Of a stretch of DNA of 64,000 bases, positions 1 through 36,772 are shown one piece after another. The DNA is from Thermoanaerobaculia bacterium (GTDB taxonomy: Bacteria; Acidobacteriota; Thermoanaerobaculia; Multivoradales; J023), in contig JALCBJ010000006.1 of assembly GCA_028066595.1 (NCBI GenBank), forward strand, positions 27,685 to 91,684, given 5' to 3'. Position 1 is the stretch's first letter. Each line of letters begins with the position of its first letter. The translations under genes were made by a program, and so were the position numbers. The notes beneath the pieces were generated by a model that saw only the letters and a list, made by a program, of their open reading frames with translations, was not told the DNA's origin and made no database searches.

Positions 1-588
1 GCCTACGATGGGCTCTTGCCCGACCTCGATCTTGGCTCGCTCGAGGCGCTCGGCGCCGACCTGAGCCCAGGTCTCCGAGAAGATTAACGTATGGCGCCGC
101 TGCCACGGTACTTCCATGGCTTCGAGTAGAAACCGGGAGTCGTCACCTACCCAGTGCGGCGACTTCGCGGGTCGAGAAACCGCGGGCCGGAGCAGCAGGG
201 AGCGCAGCCACCCTCCGGGAGGCCAGAGACCCGAGGCATATCCCCAACGCTTGGCAATGCCAGCTGCCGTCACCCAGCGCACGTCGGCGACCCGATCGGA
301 GAGCACGAGCGCTTCGTCGAAGCCCGCCTCGCGGAGGCGCTGAAAGTCGAGTCCGGCGTCCCGGTGGAGACACAGCGGTTCTGAGACGTCTTCCGGTGGT
401 CGGTCCCGCATGCGCAGGTGAAGCAACGTGGCGTAGATCAACGATGCCGGCTCGGTATCGGTCAAAGCCACGACCAACCGTCCGGTGGCCGACAGCGAAT
501 CGAACACCGACAGGCTCGTCAACAAGCCGACGACGCCCCGTGGTGGAATCACCAGCGTTCGCCGCACGGGAAGTCGCGTAGGGCTCAC
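1..588 (-). CDS. ADP-heptose:LPS heptosyltransferase-like glycosyltransferase (GT9), C-terminus cut by window
   Basis: An open frame of 196 codons runs from a GTG at 588 off the left edge of the window. The GTG shares a GTGA overlap with the lpxK stop, so the two are translationally coupled. The N-terminus reads LVIPPRGVVGLLTSL, followed by DEALVLSDRVADVRWVTAAG and a KRWGYASG stretch; this matches the N-terminal half of WaaF/RfaF-type family 9 glycosyltransferases, where a short P-rich loop is followed by a hydrophobic 'rigid acceptor' region. Family members add heptose to the inner core of LPS at the cytoplasmic face of the inner membrane. The position directly after waaA and lpxK supports an LPS-core role. 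The nucleotide-sugar site lies in the missing C-terminal half, so the exact sugar specificity cannot be assigned. Confidence 0.72.
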   Translation of the reverse strand, partial: MSPTRLPVRRTLVIPPRGVVGLLTSLSVFDSLSATGRLVVALTDTEPASLIYATLLHLRMRDRPPEDVSEPLCLHRDAGLDFQRLREAGFDEALVLSDRVADVRWVTAAGIAKRWGYASGLWPPGGWLRSLLLRPAVSRPAKSPHWVGDDSRFLLEAMEVPWQRRHTLIFSETWAQVGAERLERAKIEVGQEPIVG

Positions 589-22867: not shown

Positions 22868-23161
22868 TCACCCCGGCATCCATCGGTGGCGCACGACTAC
22901 AAGATCGCGCCACGGTACATTCCATGATCCGCTCCATCGCCGGATGCTGATGCCCGCGGCCATGGCTCCAGGCAGAAAAGCATGCTCCTTCGGGATGCAC
23001 ATCGCGCCGAAGAAGATGAGACCGATTACCAGAAACCCTGCCGCACTTTCCGAATCTGTGGCGTTGGTCTCCGTCACTGCCTTTCCGGCGAACCACGGCA
23101 CACGTATAGCTGCAGTGGCAGACGACTGTTCTGAGGAGTAGATAGTGCTCAAGCACCACAC
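22868..23161 (-). CDS. Possible small membrane protein
   Basis: A 97-residue frame from a GTG at 23161 contains one hydrophobic stretch, SAAGFLVIGLIFFGAMCI, followed by a basic region. An overlapping frame (23159-22851) lacks such a pattern. There is no clear Shine-Dalgarno and no recognised family. It could be a real accessory gene or chance; the sequence lies between the accessory trio and the his-trp promoter. Apart from this, 22649-23191 shows no gene. Confidence 0.3.
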   Translation of the reverse strand: MWCLSTIYSSEQSSATAAIRVPWFAGKAVTETNATDSESAAGFLVIGLIFFGAMCIPKEHAFLPGAMAAGISIRRWSGSWNVPWRDLVVVRHRWMPG

Positions 23162-23191
23162 AGTTCTACGACACCCCCGCGGAGGGACTTC

Positions 23192-23220
23192 TTGACAGCG
23201 TAGAGACCACCTGCTTTAAT
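23192..23220 (+). promoter_or_regulatory. Sigma-70-type promoter of the aroDE-his-trp operon
   Basis: A perfect TTGACA (23192-23197) is followed after exactly 17 bases by TTTAAT (23215-23220), a five-of-six match to TATAAT. It is the best-matching promoter in the window. The expected transcription start near 23227 gives a leader RNA of about 325 nt before aroDE, long enough for the leader peptide and alternative hairpins found there. Confidence 0.8.
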
Positions 23221-23299
23221 GCCGTCGCTATTCGACCGGCGCAACCTCGCCCATCGACACCAAGCCTCGAACAAGGCCTCTAGACCCGCACTAGCCATC

Positions 23300-23359
23300 A
23301 TGCCGACTCGCACCCAGACTTCCCATTCCTGGTGGCACGGCGTGCATCACGGCGTCTAA
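23300..23359 (+). CDS. Candidate his-trp operon leader peptide (4 His, 2 Trp)
   Basis: ATG at 23300 opens a 19-residue peptide, MPTRTQTSHSWWHGVHHGV, ending with TAA (23357-23359). Residues 9-17 carry His9, Trp11, Trp12, His13, His16 and His17, i.e. six codons for exactly the two amino acids whose biosynthesis genes follow. His and Trp are rare in proteins, so this cluster is very unlikely by chance at this position. Ribosome stalling here when His-tRNA or Trp-tRNA runs short would change folding of the RNA just after the stop codon. The ribosome site is weak, with no clear Shine-Dalgarno. No His/Trp leader of this mixed kind is known to me. Confidence 0.75.
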   Translation: MPTRTQTSHSWWHGVHHGV

Positions 23360-23395
23360 AAGCTGGGTGCGTCCCGGCTGCTGTGAGACCGGGAC
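23309..23395 (+). promoter_or_regulatory. Candidate attenuator: mutually exclusive RNA hairpins
   Basis: Four segments can pair in two exclusive ways. Segment 1, CGCACCCAG (23309-23317, codons 4-6 of the leader peptide), is perfectly complementary over 9 bp to segment 2, CTGGGTGCG (23363-23371), just after the stop codon. Segment 2 (AGCTGGG, 23361-23367) can instead pair with segment 3 (CCCGGCT, 23373-23379; 7 bp, one G-T). Segment 3 (GTCCCGG, 23371-23377) can also pair with segment 4 (CCGGGAC, 23389-23395; 7 bp). This is the 1:2 + 3:4 versus 2:3 logic of classical attenuators. The 3:4 hairpin lacks a following T-run, so termination may happen further down or need Rho. Confidence 0.6.
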
Positions 23396-23442
23396 GAGGA
23401 CCAAGGCGAGCCAGCCTCTTTCCGGATCTCCCTCAGCGGAGA

Positions 23443-23466
23443 CGACGAAAGGGGCTTTCGGCGTTT
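23443..23466 (+). terminator. Possible attenuator terminator in the his-trp leader
   Basis: CGACGAAAG (23443-23451) and CTTTCGGCG (23455-23463) form a stem of eight pairs with one A-G mismatch and a GGG loop, followed directly by TTT (23464-23466). The T-run is short for an intrinsic terminator. It lies 88 nt before the aroDE start and after the switching hairpins, where an attenuation terminator would be expected. Confidence 0.4.
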
Positions 23467-23553
23467 GGGCCTGCTGCATCCGGCTAGACGAACCGAAGCG
23501 TACCTTCCCCGACACCGTCACCTCTCACCAACAAACTCAGAACGAGACTCGAT

Positions 23554-25065
23554 GTGAAGCGGACATCCCTGGTCGCCACTTTGACCACGCCCCCATCGGA
23601 CGACGGAGCCGAGCTTCGCTCCCTGCCCGAGGGGACCGATTGGCTCGAGGTCCGCGCCGACCTGGTCGGGGACTTGGATCCGGCGTGGCTACGCGATCGC
23701 TGGAGTGGAGGCCTGATCTACACACTGCGGTCGAAGGCCGAGGGAGGGAAGGCAAAGGGCGGACGGGCAGCGCGCCAGCGGCGGTTGTCCGCAGCCGCCG
23801 CCGACTACGACCTCGTCGACCTGGAAGCTGAAAGGGACCGTACCGACGAGATGCTCGGCGCCATCCCCGCCGAACAGCGTCTGATCTCGTGGCACGGCCC
23901 ATCGACCCACCTCACCGGGCTCAAGGAACGTTTCGCCGGCCTGGCCAAGACACCGGCGAGGTTCTACAAGATGATCCCCTTTGCCGCGCAGAGCGGTGAC
24001 GGCATCCGAGCTCTGGCACTTCTCGACTCCGTACGGCGCGACGATTTCATCTGCTTCGCAGCCGGCGACATCGGGTCCTGGACCCGCATCCTCGCACCGC
24101 GCCTCGGTTGCCCGTTGGTGTACGGCGCATTCGGTGACGAGCCCGGCGCCCCCGGCCAGTGGACAGTCGAGAAGCTGAGCCGCGACTACGGCCTTCCCCA
24201 TCTGCCAGCCATCGACCGGGTCTGCGGCATCGTCGGCAATCCGGTCGTCCATTCCCTGTCGCCTCGGCTGCACAACGGGGCCTATCGGGAGTTGGGAGTC
24301 TCGGCGGTCTACGTGGCGCTCCACGTGGAAGCCTTCGGCGACTTCTGGCTCGAGGTCGTCGAGTCGGGTTCCATGGAGGTCTTGGGTCTACCCCTTCGTG
24401 GCCTTTCGGTCACGTCACCACACAAAGAAGTGGCACTGGCCGTTTCGGGGGCGTCGAGCCCGAGAGCCCAGCACATCGAGGCCGCCAACACGCTGGTCCG
24501 GCATGACGAGGTTTGGGAGGCCGAGTCCACGGACCCCGACGGCGTGGTGCTGGCCTTGACCAGCGCGGGCGTCGAGCTCGGCGGTCGAAAGGCCGCCGTC
24601 GTGGGCTGTGGTGGTGCCGGCAAAGCGGCTGCTTACGGTCTGCAGTTGGCGGGCGCGAAAGTGACTCTCGTCAATCGCTCGAAAGAACGGGGGAAAAAGG
24701 CGTCGATGGAACTGGCCCTACCCTACCGGCCTCTCGACGAGTTCGATCCCGCGCGCTACGACGTGATCGTCCAGGCGACGGCGCTGGGCCACCTTTCCGA
24801 CGATCCCCTGGCGTTCGACCCCGAGAGACTGGCACCCCATGCGGCCGTCCTCGACATGGTCTACGGCTCCGGTCCGACCCGCCTGCTGCAGCGGGTGGAA
24901 GAGCTGGGTCGCATCGCCGTGGAGGGCCGGGAGATGCTGCTCTATCAGGCCCTCGAGCAGTTTCGCTTGATGAACGGGTGCGAGCTCGACGAGAAGTTGG
25001 CGCGAGACCTGCTCAGCATACCGGCTCCGAGCCGCACCAAGGAAACGACGGACGGCACACCATGA
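23554..25065 (+). CDS. aroDE: Bifunctional 3-dehydroquinate dehydratase / shikimate dehydrogenase
   Basis: A 503-residue fusion for two consecutive shikimate-pathway steps. The N-terminal type I dehydroquinase (1-215) has EVRAD, catalytic His in LISWHG (H114) and Schiff-base Lys in FYKMIPFA (K139). The shikimate dehydrogenase (about 222-490) has GIVGNPVVHSLSPRLHN, LSVTSPHKE and the NADP loop GCGGAGKAAA. The order AroD-AroE is that of the plant enzyme and of some bacteria. The start is a GTG at 23554 that overlaps an out-of-frame ATGTGA start-stop (23552-23557) with no strong Shine-Dalgarno. It heads the operon and supplies chorismate precursors for tryptophan. The stop overlaps hisZ (ATGA). 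Confidence 0.92.
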   Translation: MKRTSLVATLTTPPSDDGAELRSLPEGTDWLEVRADLVGDLDPAWLRDRWSGGLIYTLRSKAEGGKAKGGRAARQRRLSAAAADYDLVDLEAERDRTDEMLGAIPAEQRLISWHGPSTHLTGLKERFAGLAKTPARFYKMIPFAAQSGDGIRALALLDSVRRDDFICFAAGDIGSWTRILAPRLGCPLVYGAFGDEPGAPGQWTVEKLSRDYGLPHLPAIDRVCGIVGNPVVHSLSPRLHNGAYRELGVSAVYVALHVEAFGDFWLEVVESGSMEVLGLPLRGLSVTSPHKEVALAVSGASSPRAQHIEAANTLVRHDEVWEAESTDPDGVVLALTSAGVELGGRKAAVVGCGGAGKAAAYGLQLAGAKVTLVNRSKERGKKASMELALPYRPLDEFDPARYDVIVQATALGHLSDDPLAFDPERLAPHAAVLDMVYGSGPTRLLQRVEELGRIAVEGREMLLYQALEQFRLMNGCELDEKLARDLLSIPAPSRTKETTDGTP

Positions 25066-26042
25066 AAGTCACCGCATCACTCCCCACCGGTGTTGCCGCG
25101 CTCCTCTTCGACAGTGCACGCCACCGTCGCCGACTCGAAGGCGAGATGGTGGAAAGCCTGGAGCGAGCCGACTTCACCGAGGTCGTACTGCCCGTGGTGG
25201 ACTACCTTGAGCCATACGACGCGATGCTGTCAGAGACGAGCCGCGCAGAGCTCTACCGTTTCGTCGATCGCGACGGCGCCATGCTCGCCCTGCGCGCCGA
25301 CTTCACCCCTATGCTGGCTCGTCTGTTGGCACCACACCTCGACGCCTCGCGTACGGACGACCTGCCGCTAAGGGTGTTCTACCGAGGTGACGTGTTGCGC
25401 TACCAAGAGGAGCGCGCCGGCCGGCAGCGAGAACTCTATCAGCTGGGAGCCGAGATACTCGGCGCCGAGGGTGAGAAAGCCGAAGCCGAAGCCCTACTGC
25501 GCTTCCTTGAGCTGCTGGCGGTGGGTGAGCGGTCGCGATTGACGGTGGTGGTCGGCTTCGCGGGAGCGCTGGACCGACTGCTCATGGACCGTTTCGACGA
25601 CCGGGCGGAAGCCATTCGGCTGGTGGATGCCATCGTCCGCCGCGAGCGGCATCCGGCACGGACGGCTGGCGAGGGATTGCTGCAGGTGGTACAGCACGGG
25701 GTACCCGACGATCCCGAGGTTCTCGGCACCGAATCGGCGGCGCATCTCCGGCGTTTGGGCGCATTGCTGGAGGATCTGCAAGCGCGCTTCCCTGCCATCA
25801 CCCTACGTCTCGACCTGGCAGAGTTCGCCGATCAGGTGACGACACCCGAGCTCGTAGAGGTGATCGGAGCCCGCGCCTACTACGACGGAGTGGTCTTCCG
25901 TGCGTTCACGGATCGGTCGGCGGAGCCGGTGGGTAACGGCGGCCGCTACGACCGCTTGTTCGAGCGCCTCGGCGCCCGAATCACAGCCTGTGGTTTCAGC
26001 TTCAGCCTCGACCGTCTGGTCGGCAGAGGAAGACCGTCATGA
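25062..26042 (+). CDS. hisZ: ATP phosphoribosyltransferase regulatory subunit
   Basis: A 326-residue HisRS paralogue that lacks the anticodon-binding domain and cannot charge tRNA. It carries motif 2 (RVFYRGDVLRYQ...RELYQLGAEILG) and motif 3 (GNGGRYDRLF...GFSFSLDRL) of class II synthetases. HisZ forms a hetero-octamer with short HisG and is needed for its activity and for histidine feedback. The ATG at 25062 overlaps the aroDE stop; a longer upstream frame is antisense-like noise. The short HisG directly downstream confirms the pairing. Confidence 0.93.
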   Translation: MKVTASLPTGVAALLFDSARHRRRLEGEMVESLERADFTEVVLPVVDYLEPYDAMLSETSRAELYRFVDRDGAMLALRADFTPMLARLLAPHLDASRTDDLPLRVFYRGDVLRYQEERAGRQRELYQLGAEILGAEGEKAEAEALLRFLELLAVGERSRLTVVVGFAGALDRLLMDRFDDRAEAIRLVDAIVRRERHPARTAGEGLLQVVQHGVPDDPEVLGTESAAHLRRLGALLEDLQARFPAITLRLDLAEFADQVTTPELVEVIGARAYYDGVVFRAFTDRSAEPVGNGGRYDRLFERLGARITACGFSFSLDRLVGRGRPS

Positions 26043-26677
26043 TTCTCGCGTTGCCCAAGGGGCGCAATCTGAAGATCGCTCTGCAGGCTTTTCGGGCTGC
26101 CGGGTTGCCCCTCGACAGGGTACCGGGCGGCCTCGAGGAGGGCGACCGCAGACTCCGCGTCGACCTGCCGGACGCAGGTTTTCAAATCCTCCTGCTCAAA
26201 GACTGGGATGTTCCGCTTTACGTGGAGTACGGCATCGCCGACGTCGGCATCGTAGGCTCCGACGTGCTGGCGGAGGTAGGTGGCGACGTGCTGGTACCGG
26301 CGCGCTTCACCGATGGCCGTTGCCGGCTGTCGCTGGTCGGACGAAACGAGCTACCCGCGCCCGGCGCACAGGTGCGCCTGGCTTCGAAGTTCACCAACAT
26401 CGCCCATCAGGTCGTCGCCGATGAGCCCTGGAACGCCGAGATCTTGAAGCTCTTCGGATCGGTCGAGCTGGGTCCTTTGCTGGAGCTGTCGGAAGTCGCC
26501 CTCGACATCGTCCAGACCGGCCGCACTCTGAAAGAGAACCACCTACGGGAGCTCAAGGTGGTGCGCGAAGTGGCACCGTTACTACTGGTCCACCGCGCCG
26601 CCTTCCAGCGCCATCGGGAACGTATCAACGACCTGGTGGACGCCTTCGAAGCGGCCGGTGTCGTCGACCTCGACTGA
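26039..26677 (+). CDS. hisG: ATP phosphoribosyltransferase, short form
   Basis: First committed step of histidine synthesis: ATP plus PRPP gives N1-phosphoribosyl-ATP. The 212-residue product lacks the C-terminal regulatory ACT-like domain of long HisG, as expected when HisZ is present. Visible motifs are MILALPKGRNLKIAL, YGIADVGIVGSDVL and the PRPP-binding VALDIVQTGRTLKENHLREL. ATGA overlap with hisZ indicates coupled, stoichiometric synthesis. Confidence 0.95.
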   Translation: MILALPKGRNLKIALQAFRAAGLPLDRVPGGLEEGDRRLRVDLPDAGFQILLLKDWDVPLYVEYGIADVGIVGSDVLAEVGGDVLVPARFTDGRCRLSLVGRNELPAPGAQVRLASKFTNIAHQVVADEPWNAEILKLFGSVELGPLLELSEVALDIVQTGRTLKENHLRELKVVREVAPLLLVHRAAFQRHRERINDLVDAFEAAGVVDLD

Positions 26678-26719
26678 GATCCCCCAACCGCGATTCGATC
26701 AACTCCTCGGAGACTCACC

Positions 26720-28036
26720 ATGGCACTCTTCTCCATCGTCGATGCCCGCCGCCGGAGCGGCCAGAAGCTCCTCAACCGGCTGGAGAGCCGCAGCGACGGC
26801 ATCCTCGATCCCAAGGTCGTGGCCCAGACCGCCAAGATCGTCGATTCGATCCGCCGCGGAGGCGACCGCTCGCTGCTCAAGGCCGTCCGGAAGTTCGACG
26901 GCGTGAAGCGTTCCCAGGTCGTCGATCTGCGGCTACGCCCGGAACGCGCCGATCGCCGCACGTTGCCGGCGGGATTCGAGCACGCGCTCGAACGCGCCAT
27001 CGTCGCCGTAGAGCGCTATCACGAAGCGCAGCGTCACCCCTCCATTCGGCTCGAAGAAGCGGGCATCCGCCTGGAGGAGCAGCGGCGGCCCCTACGCCGT
27101 GTCGGTGTCTATGTTCCGGGTGGGCGCGCCACCTATCCATCCTCTGTGGTGATGACGGTGGGTCCGGCCAAGCTAGCCGGCGTCGAGGAGATCGTCGTCG
27201 CCACACCTCTGGCCGGCTGGGAACGTTCGGCATCGCTGCGGCACGCCTTGGAACGTCTCGGCGTTACCGAGGTATGGGCCATGGGTGGTGCCCACGGTGT
27301 GGCGGCGCTCGCCTACGGCACCGAGACGATCCGCCGCGTCGACAAGATCGTCGGGCCGGGAAATGCCTGGGTCACGGCTGCCAAGCACGTGGTCTCGACC
27401 CGCGTCGGAATCGAAGGGCTGACCGGGCCGAGCGAGGTGGTGATCGTCGCCACGGGTTCGGCCGATCCGTCGTTGGTGGCGGCAGATCTCTTGGCCCAGG
27501 CCGAGCACGATCCCCAGGCTACGACCCTTCTCATCACGGACCAGGCGGCGCTGGCACGGCGCGTGCGCAGTCAGATCAAGACTCAGATCCGGTCCCTCGA
27601 AACGGCACCGGTCATCCGACAGTCGCTACACCTCCACGGTGGAGCCGTCGTCGTGCCCAACTTGGAGACGGCCCTGGAGTGGGTCGAGCGCATCGCTCCT
27701 GAGCACCTGCAGCTGGTAGGGGAAGAGGCCGAGACATTGGCCGACCGCGTGCGGAACGCTGGAGCGGTGTTCGTCGGCGAGGCGACGCCGGTCGCCTTCG
27801 GCGACTACCTCGCCGGCCCCAGCCACTGTCTGCCGACCGGGGGCTCGGCCCGCTATGCCTCGGCCCTGGGGGTGGAAGACTTCGTTCGCCGTAGCCATCT
27901 GGTGCAGTTCTCCGCCACCGCGGCGGAGCGCTGCGCTCGTGCCACGGCCATCCTTGCCGACGTCGAGGGACTGCCTGCTCACGCCGAAGCAGCACGCCGT
28001 CGCAGCGACCTTGCGCGCGAGGACGGTACCCGATGA
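26720..28036 (+). CDS. hisD: Histidinol dehydrogenase
   Basis: Catalyses the last two steps, L-histidinol to L-histidine with two NAD. The 438-residue product has VYVPGGRATYPSSVVM, the NAD-binding IVGPGNAWVTAAK, the zinc ligands in DLLAQAEHDPQAT and the catalytic Glu-His pair in RIAPEHLQL, all in standard positions. There are 42 bases after hisG, with a CGGAG ribosome site; this is the widest gap between annotated his genes apart from hisC-hisB. It overlaps hisC by ATGA. Confidence 0.96.
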   Translation: MALFSIVDARRRSGQKLLNRLESRSDGILDPKVVAQTAKIVDSIRRGGDRSLLKAVRKFDGVKRSQVVDLRLRPERADRRTLPAGFEHALERAIVAVERYHEAQRHPSIRLEEAGIRLEEQRRPLRRVGVYVPGGRATYPSSVVMTVGPAKLAGVEEIVVATPLAGWERSASLRHALERLGVTEVWAMGGAHGVAALAYGTETIRRVDKIVGPGNAWVTAAKHVVSTRVGIEGLTGPSEVVIVATGSADPSLVAADLLAQAEHDPQATTLLITDQAALARRVRSQIKTQIRSLETAPVIRQSLHLHGGAVVVPNLETALEWVERIAPEHLQLVGEEAETLADRVRNAGAVFVGEATPVAFGDYLAGPSHCLPTGGSARYASALGVEDFVRRSHLVQFSATAAERCARATAILADVEGLPAHAEAARRRSDLAREDGTR

Positions 28037-29145
28037 CCCAGCTGTCCGGCACGGCCGGAGGCACCGTCGACCCGACACGCTTGGTCCGCCCCGAGATGCG
28101 CGAGCTGGGCATCTACCACCTCGACCTATCGCCCTGCCGTCACAAACTGGACCAAAACGAGGTCCCGTACGACCTGCCACGGCGAATGAAGCGGAGGATC
28201 GCCGAGCGCTGGATCGGGCGTTCCTGGGCACAGTACCCCGACTTTCACTGCGACGCGGTACGTGATCTCCTGGCGCGCCACAACGGCTGGAACTTCGAAG
28301 GCACGCTGGTGGGCAACGGCTCGAACGAGCTCTTGGGTATCGCCATGGAGGCGCTGGCCCGACCGGGCGGCGAGGTCCTGACGATCGCGCCCAGCTTTGG
28401 CCTCTACCCGATGTTCGTGCGACGGGCTGCGGCGATACCGAGGGTGCTGCTCTCGGATGAAGATCTCCGCCTGCCTCTGGCGGCCCTGGAGGCGGAGGTC
28501 GAGTCCGACCCGACCCGACCCGTGATCCTGTGCAGCCCCAACAACCCGACGGGAGATGCCGTCAGCGTGGCTCAGGTGGATCGTCTGTTGTCGAAGATGC
28601 AAGGCCCCTTGTTGCTCGACAATGCTTACGGCGAGTTCAGCGAGCACGACTACCGACTGCTCCTACGCGAGCATCGGCACCTCGTCCTCTTCCGCACCTT
28701 CTCAAAGGCCTGGTCCCTCGGTGGTCTTCGGCTCGGCTACCTTCTCGCCGACCCGGAGCTGGTACATCAGCTGATCAAGGTGAAGCTTCCCTACAACGTC
28801 GGTATCGCCCATGGATTTGCCGCCGAGGAGGTCCTGCGAAACCCGCGAACGGCCGAGCGGCGCGTCGGCGCCATGCTGGCCCGCCGGCCTCAGTGGCAGG
28901 AGATGCTCGAGTCCGTGGGTCTGACGGTCTTCCCGTCGGAGGCGAACTTCTTCCTCGTTCGGCTGCCACTCGAACATGATGCAGACGTCGTTCGTCGGGG
29001 CCTGGAGGTGCGCGGCATTCGGGTACGGGACGTATCGAGATACCCCCGCCTTCACGGCTGCTTGCGGGTCTCGGTGGGGAACGGCAGAGCGTTACGCGAC
29101 GTCGAGGCGGCCCTCCGAGATGTCTTGAGGCCAGCGGAACGATGA
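28033..29145 (+). CDS. hisC: Histidinol-phosphate aminotransferase
   Basis: A 370-residue PLP fold-type I aminotransferase that converts imidazole-acetol phosphate to histidinol phosphate. It has the substrate motif KLDQNEVPYDLP, CSPNNPTGD, and the PLP lysine in FRTFSKAWSLGGLRLGYLL. The usual D-E/P-AY motif reads DNAYGEF here. The start overlaps the hisD stop, and the stop overlaps the ATG of a 40-codon ORF. Related aminotransferases can act on aromatic substrates, but the operon context makes HisC the clear assignment. Confidence 0.93.
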   Translation: MTQLSGTAGGTVDPTRLVRPEMRELGIYHLDLSPCRHKLDQNEVPYDLPRRMKRRIAERWIGRSWAQYPDFHCDAVRDLLARHNGWNFEGTLVGNGSNELLGIAMEALARPGGEVLTIAPSFGLYPMFVRRAAAIPRVLLSDEDLRLPLAALEAEVESDPTRPVILCSPNNPTGDAVSVAQVDRLLSKMQGPLLLDNAYGEFSEHDYRLLLREHRHLVLFRTFSKAWSLGGLRLGYLLADPELVHQLIKVKLPYNVGIAHGFAAEEVLRNPRTAERRVGAMLARRPQWQEMLESVGLTVFPSEANFFLVRLPLEHDADVVRRGLEVRGIRVRDVSRYPRLHGCLRVSVGNGRALRDVEAALRDVLRPAER

Positions 29146-29264
29146 ACACGGAAGCGACGCATTCCTCCCGCGGTACCGATCGCGACCGCGTACCGCGGAG
29201 ACGTCGAGTGAAGAACAGGAACAGCAGAACCATGGGAATCCAACTCGAGACGGAGGATCGGTAA
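29142..29264 (+). CDS. Candidate 40-residue basic microprotein inside the his operon
   Basis: An ATG at 29142 overlaps the hisC stop as ATGA, and the 40-codon frame ends in TAA (29262-29264) overlapping the hisB ATG as TAATG. It therefore fills the whole hisC-hisB gap in one frame, with the same coupling geometry as its neighbours. The product is polar and Arg-rich, beginning MNTEATHSSRGTDRDR with an RRRR stretch at 19-22 and a less basic end QLETEDR. No family is recognised. It could be a real microprotein, or a translated spacer that keeps ribosomes on the message up to hisB, which has its own GGAGGA site within this ORF. Confidence 0.45.
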   Translation: MNTEATHSSRGTDRDRVPRRRRVKNRNSRTMGIQLETEDR

Positions 29265-29878
29265 TGCCTACCCACCGAGGGAACCGGGTCGGACGCGTCG
29301 AGCGAGCCACAAAAGAAACGTCGATTCGCGTACAGCTGGATCTGGATGGCGGTGAGCGGACGATCGACGTACCCGACGGCTTCTTCGCCCACATGTTGGA
29401 CGCCTTGACGACCCACGGCGGTCTGGGGATCGATCTCGAGGCCCGGGGCGACACCCACGTCGACCTCCATCACACGGTCGAGGACGTAGGGATTGCGATG
29501 GGTGACGCTCTCGTTGAGGCTCTGGGTCAGCGACGGGGCATCGTCCGTTTCGCCAGCGCATATACGCCGCTCGACGAGGCCCTCTCCCGCGCGGTCGTCG
29601 ACGTGTCCGGTCGTGGTTTCTTTTCGTGGCACATTCCCGAGGAGCTGCGACATGTCTGGGTGACCCGCGAATTCCCACTCGACCTGGTCGCAGACTTCTT
29701 CCAGGCATTCGCCGATCGCGGCCGTTTCTGCCTACACCTCGACGTGCTCCGCGCCCGCAACGGTCACCACGCCGCCGAGGCCTCGTTCAAGGCGGTGGCA
29801 GTGGCCCTTCGTCAGGCTCTCACCGTCCGCCCCGAGCTGGACGACGTACCGTCGACCAAAGGGACGCTGACCGCATGA
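29264..29878 (+). CDS. hisB: Imidazoleglycerol-phosphate dehydratase
   Basis: A 204-residue monofunctional dehydratase without the N-terminal histidinol-phosphatase domain found in enterobacteria. The Mn-binding repeats are visible: HMLDALTTHGG, HVDLHHTVEDVGIAMGDAL (first HHxxE) and ARNGHHAAEASFKA (second HHxxE). A GGAGGA site lies eight bases before the ATG, inside the preceding 40-codon ORF. The stop overlaps the hisH ATG. Since HisB lacks a phosphatase, the cell needs another enzyme for histidinol phosphate. Confidence 0.95.
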   Translation: MPTHRGNRVGRVERATKETSIRVQLDLDGGERTIDVPDGFFAHMLDALTTHGGLGIDLEARGDTHVDLHHTVEDVGIAMGDALVEALGQRRGIVRFASAYTPLDEALSRAVVDVSGRGFFSWHIPEELRHVWVTREFPLDLVADFFQAFADRGRFCLHLDVLRARNGHHAAEASFKAVAVALRQALTVRPELDDVPSTKGTLTA

Positions 29879-30537
29879 AGACCGAGGCCACGAACCGACC
29901 GCCGGTCGCCGTCATCGACGCCGGAGTCGGAAACTTGGGCAACCTCTTTCGCGCTCTGCGCCACGTCGGAGCCGATCCAGAGCTGACCACCGATCCGGCG
30001 ACCGTAGAACGTTCGACCACGATCGTCCTTCCCGGGGTCGGAGCGTTCCGGCCACCGCGAGAACGTATGCGAGGAGGGCTCGAACGGGCGCTCCGATCAG
30101 CACTCGACAGCGGCGCCCATCTCTTGGGCATCTGTATCGGCTATCAGCTGCTCTTCGACTCAAGCACGGAGTTCGGCACCACCGACGGATTGGGGCTGCT
30201 TCCAGGCCGCATCGATCGTTTGCCCGAGAGCGTCGCGCTCCCTCAGATCGGTTGGAATCGTCTCGTACGTAGGGCCGATCATCCGCTCTTATCCGGCATT
30301 CCGGACGGCGAGAACGAAGGACTGTTCTACTTCGTCCACAGCTATGCGCCCTACGACGTGCCGGAGACGGTCCGACTGGCGGAGGCGGTTCATGGTGGGG
30401 CCTTCGTGGCGGTGGCAGGCCGCGGCAGGGTCTACGGTACCCAGTTCCACCCCGAGAAGAGCGGACCCAACGGATTGCGCCTGCTGCGCAACTTCCTCGA
30501 CCTCGCCGAGAACCGAGCTGCGGTATGCCCGAACTGA
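29875..30537 (+). CDS. hisH: Imidazole glycerol phosphate synthase, glutamine amidotransferase subunit
   Basis: A 220-residue class I amidotransferase that releases ammonia for HisF. It has VIDAGVGNLGNL, PGVGAF, the nucleophile in LLGICIGYQLLF (usual GICLGMQ) and the His-Glu dyad in YGTQFHPEKS. The ATG at 29875 overlaps the hisB stop; a longer frame upstream runs inside hisB. The end overlaps hisA by 13 bases. Confidence 0.95.
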   Translation: MKTEATNRPPVAVIDAGVGNLGNLFRALRHVGADPELTTDPATVERSTTIVLPGVGAFRPPRERMRGGLERALRSALDSGAHLLGICIGYQLLFDSSTEFGTTDGLGLLPGRIDRLPESVALPQIGWNRLVRRADHPLLSGIPDGENEGLFYFVHSYAPYDVPETVRLAEAVHGGAFVAVAGRGRVYGTQFHPEKSGPNGLRLLRNFLDLAENRAAVCPN

Positions 30538-31253
30538 TACCTGCCATCGACCTGCGTCAGGGCCGCGTGGTGCGCCTGGAGAAAGGCGACGACGCGCGGC
30601 GAAAGGCCTACGACCGAGATCCGAAGGAGCTCCTGACGCGATTCGCTGAGGTCGGCGTCCGGCGTGTGCACATAGTCGATCTCGACGCCGCGTTCGGCGA
30701 AACGCCACAGCGCGCCCTGCTGGAGGAGCTCGCTCGGTTCACACCTGTCGCACTCGAGGTCGGGGGCGGATTCCGCACCGACACAGACGTGAGCTGGGGT
30801 CTCGACGCCGGACTCGATCGGATCGTCATGGGCTCGGTGGTGGCCAAAGACACCGACGGATTCCTCGCCATGGTCCGATCTTTTCCGGGACGGCTGGTAC
30901 CAGCCATCGAAACCGCAGGGGGTGAGGTCAAGATCGGCGGCTGGACAGAGAAGGCAGCGCTCGGTCTCGAAGATCTCTGCTCCCGCCTGCAGGGCGCCGA
31001 TTGCCCGGCGGTCCTGGTCACCGACGTAGAGAAAGACGGCATGCTGCAGGGACCGAACCTGGGACTGGCGGAGCGCGTGGCCCGGGCGACCGGCATCCCG
31101 GCCATCCTCTCGGGTGGCGTCCGGGACCTGGAAGATCTCCGCCGAGCGGCAGAAAGTCCTCACCTCTCGGCCGTCATCGTCGGCAAGGCTTACTACGAAG
31201 GCCACCTGGATCTCTGGGAAGCGATCGAGATCCTACCCGGAGGTTTGAAATGA
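30525..31253 (+). CDS. hisA: ProFAR isomerase (HisA), with Glu at the usual catalytic Asp
   Basis: A 242-residue TIM barrel for the Amadori rearrangement of ProFAR to PRFAR. It has [16 protein letters not shown] (general base D9), [11 protein letters not shown], the phosphate loop [10 protein letters not shown], and [13 protein letters not shown]. In the strand that normally carries the second catalytic Asp (D127 in the Thermotoga enzyme, context LDTRGG), the sequence reads [14 protein letters not shown], so the residue is Glu129. Whether this changes rate or substrate range is unknown. It overlaps both hisH and hisF. No trpF is in this operon, so dual HisA/TrpF use cannot be excluded. Confidence 0.9.
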
Positions 31254-32086
31254 GCGCGCGATCCGGACCCGAACGCCGCGGCGAAAGTGGACTCGTGTTC
31301 CGCGTCATCCCATGCCTCGACGTGAAGGACGGACGCGTGGTCAAGGGCATCCAGTTTCAAGATCTGCGGGATCTGGGAGATCCAGCGGAAAGTGCCGCGC
31401 GGTATGCCTCCGAGGGTGCGGACGAGATCGTCTTTCTCGACATCACGGCGGCACCCGAGTCCCGCGAGACCGATCTGGATTGGGTGCGTCGCACGGCCGA
31501 GACGGTCTTTGTTCCCCTGACCGTGGGCGGAGGGGTCCGCAGACCGGAAGACGCCGAAAGACTGCTGCGATCTGGCGCCGACAAGGTGGCCACCAACACT
31601 GCGGCATTGGAAGATCCCAAACTACTCACCGAGCTGGCCGAGCGTTTCGGTAGCCAGTGCGTGGTGCTTTCGGTCGACGCCAAACGCCTTCCCGGAGACG
31701 GGCCTCCGAGGTGGGACGTCGTCACCCACGGAGGCCGTAAAGCCCGGGGCATCGACGCCTTGGAGTGGATCGAGCGCGGCATCGCACACGGAGCCGGTGA
31801 GATCCTGCTCACCTCGATCGACGCCGATGGCACGAAAGACGGCTACGATCTGGACCTCTTGCATGCGGTGGCGGAACGCGTCACCGTTCCCGTCATCGCG
31901 TCGGGCGGGGCCGGAACCCTCGAGCACCTGGTCGACGGTCTCCGGTCCGGCGCCTCCGCGGTACTCGCAGCCTCGATCTTCCACGAGGGAACCCATCGCA
32001 TCGACGACGTGAAGCGTGCCCTGGCCGAGCGCGGCTTCGCCATGCGACTGGAATCTGGCCGCGTGCCTTCGGGGAGCTCGGCATGA
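31250..32086 (+). CDS. hisF: Imidazole glycerol phosphate synthase, cyclase subunit
   Basis: A 278-residue TIM barrel that joins PRFAR and HisH-derived ammonia to give IGP and AICAR. Signatures are [55 protein letters not shown], the catalytic Asp in VLSVDAKR, and [14 protein letters not shown]. The ATG at 31250 overlaps the hisA stop; about 18 polar residues precede the barrel. AICAR links the pathway to purines. Confidence 0.95.
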
Positions 32087-32769
32087 TCGATCCGGCCGAG
32101 CTCAAATACGACGACAGAGGCCTGTTGCCGGTGGTCGTCCAGGATGTGGCAACCGGCGCAGTCCTCATGGTCGCCTGGGCCAACGCGGAGGCCGTCCGTC
32201 GCACGCTCGAGTCCGCCGACGGTTGGTTCTGGAGTCGGTCGCGGCAGGAGTTGTGGCGTAAAGGCGCGACGTCGGGCCACGTCCTGCGAGTGCAAGAAGT
32301 GGCCGCGGACTGTGATGGCGACACCCTTCTGTACCGGGTCCATCCAGCCGGACCGGCCTGCCACCTGGGGACTCGCACCTGCTTCGACTCCGAATCTCCT
32401 GAGCCGGACTCCCGCAACGGCTTCGAGAACCCGGCACGATTGGAGTTGGGCTGGCTGGCCGAGATCCTCGACGCACGCCGTGCTGCGGCCACGCCGGAAT
32501 CCTCGTATACCGCGCGCTTGTTGGCGGCCGGCACACCGCGTATCGCCCAAAAGGTCGCCGAAGAGGCTGCGGAAGCTGCGATCGGCGCCGTCGTGCACAG
32601 TCAGGATGAGACGGCCGAAGCTCGTTCGGAGCTGGTGGGCGAGGCGGCCGATCTCCTCTATCACCTCAGCGTCCTCCTCCTCGATCGCGGCATCGACCTG
32701 CGGGACGTCGCCGAGCGCCTGGCCGAGCGACATCGATCCCGACTTCCCGAGAGTGAGCAGAGATCATGA
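32083..32769 (+). CDS. hisIE: Phosphoribosyl-AMP cyclohydrolase / phosphoribosyl-ATP pyrophosphatase fusion
   Basis: A 228-residue fusion for steps two and three. The HisI part (1-115) has [33 protein letters not shown] and the zinc-binding Cys residues in ADCDGD and [12 protein letters not shown]. The HisE part (about 130-220) is an all-alpha MazG-like domain with [14 protein letters not shown] and [17 protein letters not shown]. It is the last his gene, with ATGA overlaps on both sides, including with trpE, showing that his and trp genes are on one message. Confidence 0.96.
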
Positions 32770-34241
32770 CGGAAACGAAAAAAGCAGCCGTCCACGTCAG
32801 GGAGCTCCTGGCCGACAGCCTGACGCCACTGGCGGTCTACCGTCGCCTGGCCAAGCTGTCGAAAGTCCGGTTCCTGCTGGAGAGCGTCTCCGGAGGGGAG
32901 CAGGTTTCCAGGTTCAGCTTTCTCGGCACCAAACCGCGAGAGATCTACCGCCTGTGGCCGGATCGGCTCGAAGTCACTCGGAGCTCGGATCCCGGCAAGG
33001 GCTCCGCTCATACCACGGAGGTCTTACCCGGCGAGCCCCTCGACGCCTTGCGCCGCGAGCTCCGCCGGGTGCGATCCGAGCCTGGGCCCATTCCGTTCAC
33101 GGGTGGTCTCGTCGGCTTCTTCGGCTTCGATCTGGTACGCATGATCGAACATCTGCCAAACCGACCACCGGACCATTTCGGGCTGCCGATCGCAGCGTTC
33201 GGCCGCTTCGACACAGTGGTCGTCTTCGACCATGCACGTCAACGCGTCCTGGCCATCGCCAACGAGATCGAGGACGAGGTCTCGATGGCGGAAGCCGAGG
33301 ATTCGCTGCGCCAACTGTCGGAGATCCTGACGTCCGACGGTGGCACCCGCGCCGTGGCCATGCCGGTAGACCAGCAATACGAAACGGCGCCCACGAGCCG
33401 AGTGTCCATGTCCGGGCCCGAGTATCGGGCCGCCGTCGAGAAAGCCAAGGAGTACATCCGCGCTGGCGACATCTTCCAAGTGGTGATCGGACGGCGCTGG
33501 ACCGTACCGCAGGCCCCCGGACCGCTCGCGCTGTACAGAGCGTTGCGCATGGTGAATCCCAGTCCCTACATGGTTCTGCTGGAGCTACCTGATGCCGCTC
33601 TGGTGGGCGCCTCGCCGGAGATGTTGGTGCGCAAGGCTGGCTTGCGGGTGGAGAACCGACCGATCGCCGGCACCCGCCCTCGCGGCGTGGACGAGGAAGG
33701 TGACAGAAGACTGGCGGAGGACCTGTTGAGTGATGCCAAGGAGCGGGCCGAGCATGTGATGCTGGTCGACCTGGGCCGCAACGACGTCGGCAAAGTGGCG
33801 GCGCCGGGCACGGTGAAGGTGTCGAGCTTCATGGAAGTCGAGCACTACAGCCACGTGATGCATCTGGTATCGAGTGTGGTGGGAGATCTCGACCTCGGCA
33901 GAGACGGTCTCGACGCCCTCCTAGCCTGCTTCCCGGCGGGGACCCTGTCGGGAGCGCCCAAGATCCGCGCTTTGGAGATCATCGACGAGCTCGAACCGGA
34001 GGCCCGCGGTCCCTACGGCGGAGCGGTGGGATACTTCAGCTACTCCGGCGACGTCGACACCTGCATCACGATCCGCACCCTGGTGGTCAAAGACGGCGAG
34101 ACGTCGGTCTCCGCTGGCGCCGGTCTCGTCGCCGACTCCGATCCCGCCGCGGAGGAACGAGAAACCGAGAACAAAGCCGCCGGTCTCCTGGCCGCTGTGT
34201 CGCTGGCGCAGCAGCTGGAAGCCGCGGAAAGGGTCCCATGA
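32766..34241 (+). CDS. trpE: Anthranilate synthase component I
   Basis: A 491-residue chorismate-utilising enzyme that makes anthranilate with ammonia from TrpG. The N-terminal feedback site is visible as FLLESVSGGEQVSRFSFLG; the LLES motif binds tryptophan in allosterically controlled TrpE. The C-terminal half has IRAGDIFQVVIGRR, NPSPYM, the NRPIAGTRPRG loop, HVMLVDLGRNDVGKV and SAGAGLVADSDPAAEERETENKAAG. TrpE rather than PabB is supported by the LLES site and by trpD downstream. Its ATG overlaps the hisIE stop. Confidence 0.95.
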   Translation: MTETKKAAVHVRELLADSLTPLAVYRRLAKLSKVRFLLESVSGGEQVSRFSFLGTKPREIYRLWPDRLEVTRSSDPGKGSAHTTEVLPGEPLDALRRELRRVRSEPGPIPFTGGLVGFFGFDLVRMIEHLPNRPPDHFGLPIAAFGRFDTVVVFDHARQRVLAIANEIEDEVSMAEAEDSLRQLSEILTSDGGTRAVAMPVDQQYETAPTSRVSMSGPEYRAAVEKAKEYIRAGDIFQVVIGRRWTVPQAPGPLALYRALRMVNPSPYMVLLELPDAALVGASPEMLVRKAGLRVENRPIAGTRPRGVDEEGDRRLAEDLLSDAKERAEHVMLVDLGRNDVGKVAAPGTVKVSSFMEVEHYSHVMHLVSSVVGDLDLGRDGLDALLACFPAGTLSGAPKIRALEIIDELEPEARGPYGGAVGYFSYSGDVDTCITIRTLVVKDGETSVSAGAGLVADSDPAAEERETENKAAGLLAAVSLAQQLEAAERVP

Positions 34242-34945
34242 TTCTCCTCATCGACAACTACGACTCCTTCACCTATAACTTGGTCCAACTCCTGAGGGAG
34301 GCAGGCGCCGAGGTGGAGGTCGTGCGCAACGACGCGATCGAGCCTGCCGAGGTCGCAGCACGCGCCGCTCGGGCAGAGCTCCGGGGTGTCGTGCTATCGC
34401 CCGGCCCGGGGCGCCCCGAGAACGCCGGCATGTGTCCGGCCCTCTTCGCTGCCCGACCCGATCTGCCGATCCTGGGGGTCTGCTTGGGTCACCAATGCCT
34501 CGGCCATGCCTGGGGCGCCATGGTCGAACGTGCCCCCAAACTGATGCACGGAAAGACGTCGATGGTGCGCTACCAGGACGACCCACTCTTCGAGGGTCTG
34601 CAGAATCCTTTCCAGGCCACCCGGTACCATAGCTTGGCCGTGCGCGACGGCTCGCTCCCAGCGGAGCTGAAGCCCATCGCATGGTGTGCTGATCCGGCAA
34701 CGGAAGGAGGGGACGAAGGGACCGTGATGGCACTCCGCCACCGTGAGCTGCCGTATTGGGGCGTTCAATTTCACCCGGAGTCGGTCCTCACCCATGCCGG
34801 CGTCCACATGCTGCGGAACTTCCTGCGCATCTGTGGCATCGCCGTTTCCGAAGAACCACCTCAACCGTTGGTCGATGAAGCGCACCTCGAGGCGGTCATG
34901 GCAGCTATCACCGAGGCCGACCTGAGCTCTGCAGAACATCCCTGA
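34238..34945 (+). CDS. trpG: Anthranilate synthase component II (glutamine amidotransferase)
   Basis: A 235-residue class I amidotransferase. It has ILLIDNYDSFTYNLVQLL, LSPGPGRPENAG, the nucleophile in LGVCLGHQCLGHAWG, and WGVQFHPESVLT. It is about 40 residues longer than typical TrpG, with an acidic C-terminal tail. It may also serve folate synthesis as PabA, as in many bacteria with one such gene. ATGA overlap with trpE favours 1:1 synthesis. Confidence 0.94.
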   Translation: MILLIDNYDSFTYNLVQLLREAGAEVEVVRNDAIEPAEVAARAARAELRGVVLSPGPGRPENAGMCPALFAARPDLPILGVCLGHQCLGHAWGAMVERAPKLMHGKTSMVRYQDDPLFEGLQNPFQATRYHSLAVRDGSLPAELKPIAWCADPATEGGDEGTVMALRHRELPYWGVQFHPESVLTHAGVHMLRNFLRICGIAVSEEPPQPLVDEAHLEAVMAAITEADLSSAEHP

Positions 34946-34962
34946 GAAGATCCGGAGATCCC

Positions 34963-35976
34963 ATGAGTCGAAACGAGAACGCTGAGCTCCAGGACATCCT
35001 CGCCGGACGCGACCTCTCCCGGGAGGTCACGCAGGCACTGTTCGGCCGCTTGATGGACGGCGAGCTCAGCGACGTAGTGAAGTCGGCCCTCCTGGTGGGC
35101 TTGGCGATGAAGGGTGAGGCCGCCTCCGAGATCGCCGGAGCGGCGTCGGCCATGCGAAAACGGGTGCTGACCATTCCCCATACGGTGGCCAAGGTCGTGG
35201 ACACCTGCGGCACCGGCGGAGACGGCAAAGGAACGTTCAACATCTCGACAGCGGCGGCTTTGGTAGCCGCTGCGGCAGGGGTACCTGTAGCGAAACATGG
35301 CAACCGATCGGTCAGCTCCAAGTCGGGCTCGGCCGACGTCCTCGCCGAGTTGGGTGTACGCATCGACCTGACACCCGACGAAGCAGGCCGCTGTCTGCAT
35401 GCCGTGGGGATCGCATTTCTCTTCGCGCCCAAGCTGCATCCGGCGATGAAGGAGGTCATGCCGGTACGCAGAGAGCTCGGAGTACGCACCATCTTCAACG
35501 TGCTCGGCCCGCTGACCAATCCGGCGGGAGCTCAGCGGCAGGTGGTGGGCGTCTTCGCACAGCACCTCGTCGACACTGTCGCCGATGTGCTCGCCGAGCT
35601 GGGTTCAGAGCACGCCTTCGTGGTCCATGGCTCCGACGGTCTCGACGAAATCACGCTCACCGGCCCCACACGTATCGCCGAAGTACGCCGGGGTGAGGTG
35701 CGCACCTACGAAATCGGTCCGGGCGACCTGGGTCTGGATGTCTGCCAACCCGCGGACTTGGCAGGAGGCACGCCGCAAGAAAACGCCGAGGCGATGCGCC
35801 GCGTACTGGGCGGTGAAGAGGGCCCCCTACTCGACATCACCGCCGCCAACGCCGGCGCAGCCATGGTGGCGGGAGGACTGGTCATGGACCTTGCGGAAGC
35901 TGTCGAAGCCGCCCGTGAGGTCATCCTCTCCGGTCTCGCGCAGGCGAAGCTGGAGGAACTCGCGGCCTGGTCCTGA
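34963..35976 (+). CDS. trpD: Anthranilate phosphoribosyltransferase
   Basis: A 337-residue enzyme transferring phosphoribose from PRPP to anthranilate. The PRPP site is clear: VVDTCGTGGDGKGTFNISTAAALVAAAAGVPVAKHGNRSVSSKSGSADVL; KLHPAMKEVMPVRRELGVRTIFNVLGPLTNPA follows. It is 17 bases after trpG and is the last recognisable gene of the operon; trpC, trpF, trpB and trpA must lie elsewhere. Both HisG and TrpD consume PRPP, which gives metabolic sense to joint control. Confidence 0.96.
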   Translation: MSRNENAELQDILAGRDLSREVTQALFGRLMDGELSDVVKSALLVGLAMKGEAASEIAGAASAMRKRVLTIPHTVAKVVDTCGTGGDGKGTFNISTAAALVAAAAGVPVAKHGNRSVSSKSGSADVLAELGVRIDLTPDEAGRCLHAVGIAFLFAPKLHPAMKEVMPVRRELGVRTIFNVLGPLTNPAGAQRQVVGVFAQHLVDTVADVLAELGSEHAFVVHGSDGLDEITLTGPTRIAEVRRGEVRTYEIGPGDLGLDVCQPADLAGGTPQENAEAMRRVLGGEEGPLLDITAANAGAAMVAGGLVMDLAEAVEAAREVILSGLAQAKLEELAAWS

Positions 35977-36055: not shown

Positions 36056-36772
36056 ATGCACATCGCTTTCGATGCCGACGACACGCTCTGGCACAACGAG
36101 TCGATCTTCAACTGGACCCAGGAACGGGTGGCCGAGTTGCTCGCCGACTGGACGCCGGCGGAAGCGTTGGGCCAGCGGCTGAACATCATAGAGCGTCGCA
36201 ATCTCGATCTGTTCGGCTACGGCAGCAAGGGATTCACACTGTCGCTGATCGAGACCGCGTTGGAGCTCTCGGAAGAAAACGTACCAGCATCGGTGATCCG
36301 GCAGATCCTCGACTACGGAAAGGCGATGATCGAGCATCCGGTGGAGCTTCTCCCCGGCGTGCGATCGACCCTCGAGTTACTCGGCGCGGAGCACCCGCTG
36401 CTCTTGATCACCAAAGGTGAGCTGTTCCACCAAGAGACCAAAATCGCCCGCTCCGGACTGGCCGATCACTTCGACGTGATCGAGATCGTTTCCGAGAAAG
36501 ATCCCGAGACGTACCGACGCGTGTTGGCGAGCCACGACATCGACGCCGCTCGCTTCGTCATGATCGGCAACTCGGTCAAATCCGACGTGCTGCCCGTGGT
36601 GTCCATCGGGGGCCAAGCCATTCACGTGCCCTACGAGTCGACCTGGGAGCTCGACATGGTGGAACACCGCGGCGCGGACGAAGAGGGTTTCTTCGTGGCC
36701 GCGACCATGGCCGACGTACCCGATGTCATCCAGCAGATCGCCTCGTTGGGCTGGAACACACTGGCCGATTGA
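36056..36772 (+). CDS. HAD superfamily hydrolase
   Basis: A 238-residue phosphatase-like protein. HAD motif I is FDADDTLWHNE (nucleophile D6, acid/base D8), motif II is LLITKGE, motif III K near SEKDPETYRR, and motif IV GNSVKSDV. The helical cap between residues 15 and 95 is of the C1 type. It lies 79 bases after trpD on the same strand, with possible separate promoter elements (TAGACT, 36029-36034). HisB here lacks a phosphatase domain, so this gene is a candidate histidinol-phosphatase by context only; its closest look-alikes are generic HAD proteins such as YjjG/GPH types. Confidence 0.88.
   Translation: MHIAFDADDTLWHNESIFNWTQERVAELLADWTPAEALGQRLNIIERRNLDLFGYGSKGFTLSLIETALELSEENVPASVIRQILDYGKAMIEHPVELLPGVRSTLELLGAEHPLLLITKGELFHQETKIARSGLADHFDVIEIVSEKDPETYRRVLASHDIDAARFVMIGNSVKSDVLPVVSIGGQAIHVPYESTWELDMVEHRGADEEGFFVAATMADVPDVIQQIASLGWNTLAD

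Follow-up and report, generated by a model that had tools for sequence, protein, structure and literature searches.

The window, as we call the whole 64,000-nucleotide stretch of DNA analysed here, from an uncultured Thermoanaerobaculia bacterium, carries a long biosynthetic operon on the + strand (23554-35976) in the order aroDE-hisZ-hisG-hisD-hisC-hisB-hisH-hisA-hisF-hisIE-trpE-trpG-trpD. Nine of its 12 gene junctions overlap. The first gene encodes a bifunctional AroD-AroE protein. Among the histidine genes, hisG, hisD, hisH, hisF, and hisIE pass the NCBIfam cut-offs, and hisZ, hisC, hisB, and hisA were assigned from best NCBIfam matches that all fall below them. The tryptophan genes pass as well, with trpE at 524.8 bits against a cut-off of 517.7, trpG (trpG_papA subfamily) at 200.2 against 121.05, and trpD at 413.1 against 199.05. 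The original prediction had described an operon for exactly histidine and tryptophan, which is right as to the histidine genes and the first tryptophan steps but too strong, as aroDE is also present and the tryptophan share consists only of trpE, trpG, and trpD. A gene of the trpF family is found on a different contig of the window's genome. That HisA doubles as TrpF (PriA) was considered as an explanation for the joint operon and is unneeded, as all 14 genomes searched have a PRAI (TrpF-family) gene apart from hisA. Directly after trpD (36056-36772) sits a gene for a HAD-family hydrolase with a weak match to a HAD subfamily; it could be a candidate for the missing histidinol phosphatase. The named relatives of the window are mostly titled Acidobacteriota, several of them Thermoanaerobaculia.

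Table 1. Coordinates of the predicted control region and of the operon genes in the window
Feature	Position	Strand	Details
Predicted sigma-70-type promoter	23192-23220	+	TTGACA 23192-23197, 17 nt, TTTAAT 23215-23220; read from sequence
Leader peptide ORF, MPTRTQTSHSWWHGVHHGV	23300-23359	+	19 codons; ATG 23300, stop TAA 23357-23359; peptide end ...HSWWHGVHHGV
Segment A, codons 4-6, CGCACCCAG	23309-23317	+	9 bp complementary to 23363-23371 (CTGGGTGCG)
Segment B, just 3' of the stop codon	23361-23371	+	pairs with C (23361-23367 with 23373-23379) or with A
Segment C	23370-23379	+	partner B (antitermination) or D (termination)
Segment D, CCGGGACGAGG	23389-23399	+	partner C or E
Segment E, 5' arm of predicted terminator hairpin	23413-23425	+	23415-23425 pairs with D as antiterminator
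Segment F and interrupted U-tract (TTTCGGCGTTT)	23447-23468	+	3' arm of predicted terminator hairpin, 23447-23456
aroDE (3-dehydroquinate dehydratase/shikimate dehydrogenase)	23554-25065	+	NCBIfam aroE 8e-49, aroD 2.4e-13, both below curated cut-offs
Histidine genes	25062-32769	+	NCBIfam best matches; starts: hisZ 25062, hisG 26039, hisD 26720, hisC 28033, hisB 29264, hisH 29875, hisA 30525, hisF 31250, hisIE 32083
Tryptophan genes	32766-35976	+	NCBIfam; starts: trpE 32766, trpG 34238, trpD 34963

Upstream of aroDE is a short ORF with His codons at 23324-23326, 23336-23338, and 23345-23350 and Trp codons at 23330-23335. The four His and two Trp codons within nine residues that had been claimed for this 19-codon ORF are exact in both sequence and translation. 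A longer in-frame start overlaps the predicted −10 box, which makes the ATG at 23300 the more likely one, and from its sequence the ORF is probably translated in vivo. Among the 865 ORFs of 10-60 codons in the window, it is the only one with at least two Trp and at least three His codons in the last 14. At related loci (L085 onward), 27 of 23,006 distinct short-ORF peptides have at least two Trp, at least two His, and at least five of the two together in the last 14 codons, and 18 of these 27 are leaders of the same system. The TTGACA-17-TTTAAT promoter is plausible as read from the sequence, and transcription would be expected to start near 23227. A consensus promoter scan of 22900-23700 listed none; the promoter proposed here is absent from it because the scan demands A at position 2 of the −10 element. 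The pattern TTGAC-N-16..18-YNNAAT is found 5' of 12 of 33 related leaders, one of which had 24 nt searchable only.

The exact 9-bp complementarity of codons 4-6 (23309-23317) to 23363-23371 that had been pointed out is present, as is the pairing of 23361-23367 with 23373-23379; a further pairing, given originally as 23371-23377 with 23389-23395, extends to 23370-23377 with 23389-23396. The four-segment scheme (1:2/3:4 versus 2:3) built on these pairings falls short on the count, as there are six segments, A to F. What had been called 3:4 is the C:D hairpin, and E:F, which joins 23413-23422 with 23447-23456 by ten pairs, had been missed. A strict terminator scan called none in the window, where E:F is a 10-bp stem with an interrupted U-tract; the predicted terminator may therefore be weak or aided by other factors. 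The best fold of the pre-terminator transcript contains C:D and has a calculated energy of −28.0 kcal/mol, compared with −25.6 kcal/mol when B:C and D:E are forced. Because the fold with C:D is only slightly better, the ribosome would have to decide between the two, and their calculated energies appear close enough for it to do so. For A:B, the window's own duplex is at −24.1 kcal/mol versus a mean of −14.5 kcal/mol with swapped partners.

The conservation of these helices was followed in an alignment (A2) of 28 post-stop sequences, in which the consensus segments are GCCGGG (B), GTCCCGG (C), CCGGGACGAGG (D), CCTCCTTCCGG (E), and CCGGAAGGAGG (F). For C:D together with E:F, 89.7% of cells are paired (89.6% for E:F by itself), and 12 pairs show change on both sides, a number reached in 0 of 500 shuffles (shuffled mean 4.9). 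The competing helix B:C is paired in 91.7% of cells and shows change on both sides in 11 cells, a number that none of 500 shuffles reached (shuffled mean 3.1); it has no excess of further pair types (367 of 500 shuffles). D:E is paired in 89.8% of cells, with 32 of 500 shuffles as high in percent paired and 91 of 500 as high in pairs with both-side change. The covariation of D:E is weak on the alignment because its columns hardly vary. A partner-swap test compared duplex energies between own and swapped partners, with swaps made only between groups drawn by family and genus. The own partner is better in 27 of 28 sequences for B:C (p = 5.5e-5), in 26 of 28 for D:E (p = 1.1e-5), in 22 of 28 for C:D (p = 0.0051), and in 18 of 28 for E:F (p = 0.0013), and in 14 of 28 for the control B:D (p = 0.82). 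As a conserved helix A:B was rejected, the own partner being better in 13 of 27 (p = 0.79). The mutually exclusive set of the original prediction thus stands for the competing helices after the stop codon, in covariation and in the swap test, and not for its 1:2 helix (A:B) as a family trait.

The helices lie close to the end of the leader. Counted from the stop codon, the median distance is 1 nt to the start of B and 13 nt to that of C, and the last His codon is no more than 15 nt from the stop in 26 of 28, counts that the leader of G039 (L061) enters 8 nt early, as it does alignments A2 and A3. Read by eye with a stop homologous to that of its sister genomes, the G039 leader is ...GTCWRGRAQHRLS, with Trp and His counts unchanged. 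By eye, the best fold of the pre-terminator transcript contains B:C and D:E in half of the sequences (14 of 28), the window not being one of them. Four or more T in a row follow F in 16 of the 28 aligned sequences; a run of four is absent in 12, including the window, its sister G001, and genus g7. At L064, L065, L057, and L073 the 3' hairpin arm (GGAAGGAGG or alike) is located, by eye, at the expected Shine-Dalgarno position of aroDE, so that in some relatives the hairpin might act against translation too.

A covariance model (R1) was made from 27 post-stop sequences and contains no leader codons, its seeds having been picked mostly via Trp/His-dense leaders. The window, which is one of the 27 seeds, matches it at 23361-23462 with 44.4 bits. 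At E ≤ 0.01, matches are present in 54 of 72 genomes of the window's order, namely the 27 seed genomes and 27 others. Of 23 matches that were opened, 19 lie upstream of aroDE, hisZ, or trpE; one of these, in G064 of genus g7, keeps the hairpin region and has no leader. Three of the remaining four are weak and lie elsewhere, and one is at a contig end with a leader, SGWWWLGHIQWTGV, that resembles that of its sister genome. Outside genus g7, nine non-seed matches bear leaders (G003, G004, G006, G010, G018, G021, G025, G027, and G031). The R1 search missed G002, whose leader was found by reading. Class-wide, R1 matched 55 of 148 genomes at E ≤ 0.001; a class-level match in G131 has no leader and no his or trp gene in the 15.5 kb read.

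AroDE homologues are present in 56 of 59 related genomes, and 26 of 50 loci have a Trp/His-dense leader no more than 500 nt 5' of aroDE. G002, G003, and G006, at first taken to be leaderless, have a detached aroDE and carry the leader (GWWHGLHHHGI or SSWWYGVHHHGI) directly 5' of hisZ. On wider reading, such a leader is present at every operon of the order that could be followed without a break from the upstream region across his to trp. The expectation that His and Trp codons would be conserved with covarying stems was borne out when relatives were aligned: those with the same operon retain a mixed Trp/His leader ORF, and the post-stop helices covary. The mixed motifs include WWHGVHHH, WAWRTHHHH, WWGFVHHH, and WHWHWHH, in leaders such as GWWWHGVHHFGS (G001), GGWWHGVHHHGR (G005), WAWRTHHHHAVS (G011), AAAWWRGVHHHGNR (G012), WWGFVHHHVE (G007), SWWAHGHGKG (genus g7), and WWLRVHHHTT (L100). 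Variation at several codons 5' of the Trp pair in genus g7 falls mainly on the third base, an indirect sign that the leader is translated. Outside the order but within the class, 18 his loci were opened, and a leader-like ORF precedes the operon in 12 by scan and in G124 by eye; the 12 were found by Trp/His density and so are not an unbiased sample. The codons also come in other orders there, as in SWHWHWHHG (G141), LSWHWHHG (G142), and RHHHHWHWTVRR (G116). A leader was not seen in five of the 18 (L253, L261, L263, L264, and L265), of which L264 is a scrambled his-trp cluster. Family f3 (for example, L033, L045, L058, and L069) has aroDE-trpEGD operons that lack his genes. This family has mostly lost the attenuator, with R1 matches in one of 18 f3 genomes; hisD was not found in six of six f3 genomes searched, and two others gave distant hisD matches (39-40% identity) in the class search.

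In most relatives that keep the leader, its codons match the pathway genes downstream. With his and trp genes downstream, all 27 leaders contain Trp and 26 of the 27 contain two or more His; with his and no trp genes, Trp is present in one of seven; and with trp genes only, Trp is present in four of four and adjacent His codons in none of the four. These are counts over related rows, with genus g7 counted once and seven leaders of unresolved content left out. Within the order, Trp codons are found in all 23 leaders that trp genes follow and in none of the four that they do not (Fisher 5.7e-5), and adjacent His codons occur in 22 of 23 with his genes versus none of four without (Fisher 2.8e-4); minus three contig-broken rows, the values are 9.4e-5 for Trp and 4.7e-4 for His. 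On the AroDE tree, the state of his without trp amounts to four changes, three of them forced by supported branches. Independent pairs on this tree go the predicted way in three of three for Trp and in a mean of about 1.9 of two for His, too few for a significant sign test.

Examples of leaders with His and no Trp are RDLVHHHKMT (G010), RGVHHHHGMS (G025), SVVVHHHPVI (G026), and RGGMHHRHGP (G004). The trpE gene of these genomes is found elsewhere: G010, G025, and G004 carry it in a hisF-hisIE-trp or hisIE-trp cluster, G026 in a trpEGD cluster that lacks his genes. At L243 and L244 (genus g8) and L245 (G004, genus g4), hisF-hisIE or hisIE has moved with the trp genes to a second site, which has no evident leader in the 500 nt 5' of it. 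The his contig stops before the operon end in G004, G025, and G026. In G004, G010, G025, and G026, the 500 nt ahead of the split-off cluster with the trp genes showed no Trp leader. Among the converse leaders, with Trp and no adjacent His, are RPVWWCVRSRS (G034), CWRGRAQHR(LS) (G039), RWRSHVHLLGA (G036), and SGWWWLSHIHWTGV (G027), from genomes in which hisD was not found at E ≤ 1e-40. There are exceptions to the match. G036 and G027 retain two non-adjacent His codons; G075, with his genes only, has one Trp in its leader; the genus g7 leader has H-G-H rather than HH; and G124 has Trp and scattered His before aroDE-hisD-trpEGD. In G113 (L255), the leader GTTRHHHHGPPRR has HHHH and no Trp before aroDE-hisD-trpEG, and its family, f14, has rearranged short operons.

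The ORF and its codons, segments B to F, the covarying helices (B:C, and C:D together with E:F), and the match of codons to genes in most relatives are all present in the DNA. We propose with good confidence that the mixed Trp/His leader and its exclusive helices constitute a ribosome-mediated transcription attenuator of the aroDE-his-trp operon, in which a shortage of either amino acid would open both pathways. With the usual ribosome footprint, a ribosome on any of the Trp or His codons would leave B free, and a ribosome at the stop codon would cover B. When either Trp-tRNA or His-tRNA is scarce, the ribosome would halt at codons 11-17, leaving B to pair with C. Formation of B:C would release D to pair with E, E:F would be blocked, and read-through into both pathways would be likely. 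With both amino acids sufficient, the ribosome would reach the stop codon and cover B, and C:D and E:F could form and cause termination. Without translation, A:B would favour termination in the window. Such a device would be an OR gate with two amino acids as inputs to one operon. The response to either amino acid is suggested by codon content, and ribosome stalling and transcription termination at the window's leader are what the arrangement of codons and helices would predict.

It is possible that the same codons are sensed and that the output is translational, the F arm hiding the Shine-Dalgarno sequence of the first gene. The F arm GGAAGGAGG does lie, by eye, 6-10 nt 5' of the likely first start codon in several relatives, and the 12 of 28 sequences without four T in a row, the window included, are in keeping with such control. 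We regard it as unlikely, however, as aroDE starts about 98 nt 3' of F in the window and is also further downstream in genus g7, and a U-run of at least four is present in the other 16 of the 28. We think it quite improbable that just one of the two amino acids is sensed, with the other residues incidental or serving the RNA fold. Trp codons are absent in four of four genomes of the order with trpE away from the his operon, adjacent His codons are absent in four of four without his genes, and family f17 reaches the same content in another order (WHWHWHH). On the other side stand the single Trp codon of some leaders before his and trp genes (for example, WRRSGHHH) and the His-only leader before trpE in G113. 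The Gly and Lys third positions beside the His codons of genus g7 also favour sensing of one amino acid, being invariant in 19 distinct leaders of a set whose Trp and His codons were themselves fixed by the search pattern; this invariance could be an RNA constraint.

A small functional peptide, such as a His-rich metal binder, would account for the clustering of His and Trp residues. The N-terminal part varies by family, however, the residues mostly track which genes follow, and covarying post-stop helices go with the ORF, all of which make this a very remote prospect. GC-rich DNA does yield many short ORFs, 865 of them in the window, and yet a chance ORF with chance complementarities has next to nothing to recommend it, being already refuted by conservation: the composition is that of one ORF in 865 and is conserved across families with covariation.

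Leaders of another kind were first met via weak R1 matches (L248-L250). In family f10, Tyr/Phe-rich leaders (NWFYYGYYT, YAYYYGYYS, AYYYGFYT, FAYYYGYFT, and YAYYYGYFT) precede a chorismate mutase-DAHP synthase pair and are followed by hairpins and a T-run. They are present in 10 of the best 30 DAHP synthase loci, all of them f10 (L284-L286 and L288-L294), and no Tyr/Phe leader was seen at three other f10 loci among the same 30. From its sequence, the f10 leader is likely a mixed Tyr/Phe attenuator of the first aromatic step. In Acholeplasma, a Phe uORF preceding aroF is the nearest counterpart among the reports consulted (PMC8632094).

If the mixed Trp/His attenuator operates as proposed, a single leader would monitor two amino acids of separate pathways and control both. 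It also seems fairly likely to us that one attenuator chassis has been used in this class of Acidobacteriota, with its codons rewritten per operon as Trp and His, His, Trp, and perhaps Tyr and Phe before DAHP synthase. Nature would then have run the codon-replacement experiment several times, with the Trp/His version as an OR gate that joins two unrelated pathways. Codon content that tracks gene gain and loss amounts to a natural experiment through which the stalling rule can be tested directly, and such leaders would be ready-made OR-gate sensors.

Rfam models were compared with the leader region. His_leader (RF00514) and Trp_leader (RF00513) have no match at gathering scores in the window or in nine related loci, and at E ≤ 10 the sole match of Rfam in 23180-23600 is a sub-threshold L31 leader on the − strand. 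His and trp leaders that respond to a single amino acid are classical, and the attenuators known to us each respond to one amino acid or to a few of a single pathway. No mixed His/Trp leader is among the matches listed in the full-text literature, a body that most subscription papers lie outside. The E. coli thr operon, reportedly described by Lynn and co-workers in 1987 (cited in PMC7041290), is said to have a leader with Thr and Ile codons. Thr and Ile lie on one pathway. The thr leader is thus alike in that a single leader answers two amino acids, whereas His and Trp come from separate pathways that are joined here by the operon. As in thr, codons for more than one amino acid are found before an operon for both, which here has the His genes and trpEGD.

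Other known leaders share parts of the arrangement. The trp attenuators of Corynebacterium and Streptomyces, as described in the available portion of one paper, have double or triple Trp codons with an antiterminator and a terminator outside the Proteobacteria, but Trp codons are their sole regulatory codons (PMC1262725). For the histidine operons of Actinobacteria, the same paper describes no RNA structure as conserved in the upstream region (PMC1262725). A His-codon leader peptide before hisZ, as here, appears in the accessible sections of a 2010 survey for hisZ/hisS of Firmicutes, although it contains His only; for predicted attenuators of Acidobacteriota, those sections give almost no functions (PMC2965389).

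The closest counterpart is the his attenuator of Salmonella and E. coli. Here, too, a short leader ORF with codons for amino acids made by the operon is found ahead of mutually exclusive helices that covary (B:C and C:D/E:F, with B:C and D:E upheld in the swap test). The his attenuator has six segments in which C:D and the terminator E:F compete with B:C and D:E, the layout found here save for A:B and with E:F as a predicted terminator (PMC4046918). For Salmonella, the same source sets E:F against B:C and D:E and describes A:B as the helix that forms by default when the leader is not translated (PMC4046918). According to these partial sources, the leader ORF ends just before B, and promoter, leader, and hairpins precede the first gene in both systems (PMC4046918, PMC1183508); an extra hairpin ahead of the terminator is also described for the his attenuator in the excerpted source (PMC1183508). 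The differences are that the Salmonella/E. coli leader, as given in the same excerpts, has His only, seven in a row, whereas the window's leader has Trp and His (PMC4046918, PMC1183508), that the window's operon adds trpEGD and aroDE, and that A:B is not conserved. Overall, the leader described here would work like the his attenuator, stands outside the Rfam His_leader family as defined, and as a two-pathway variant of the his type is new.
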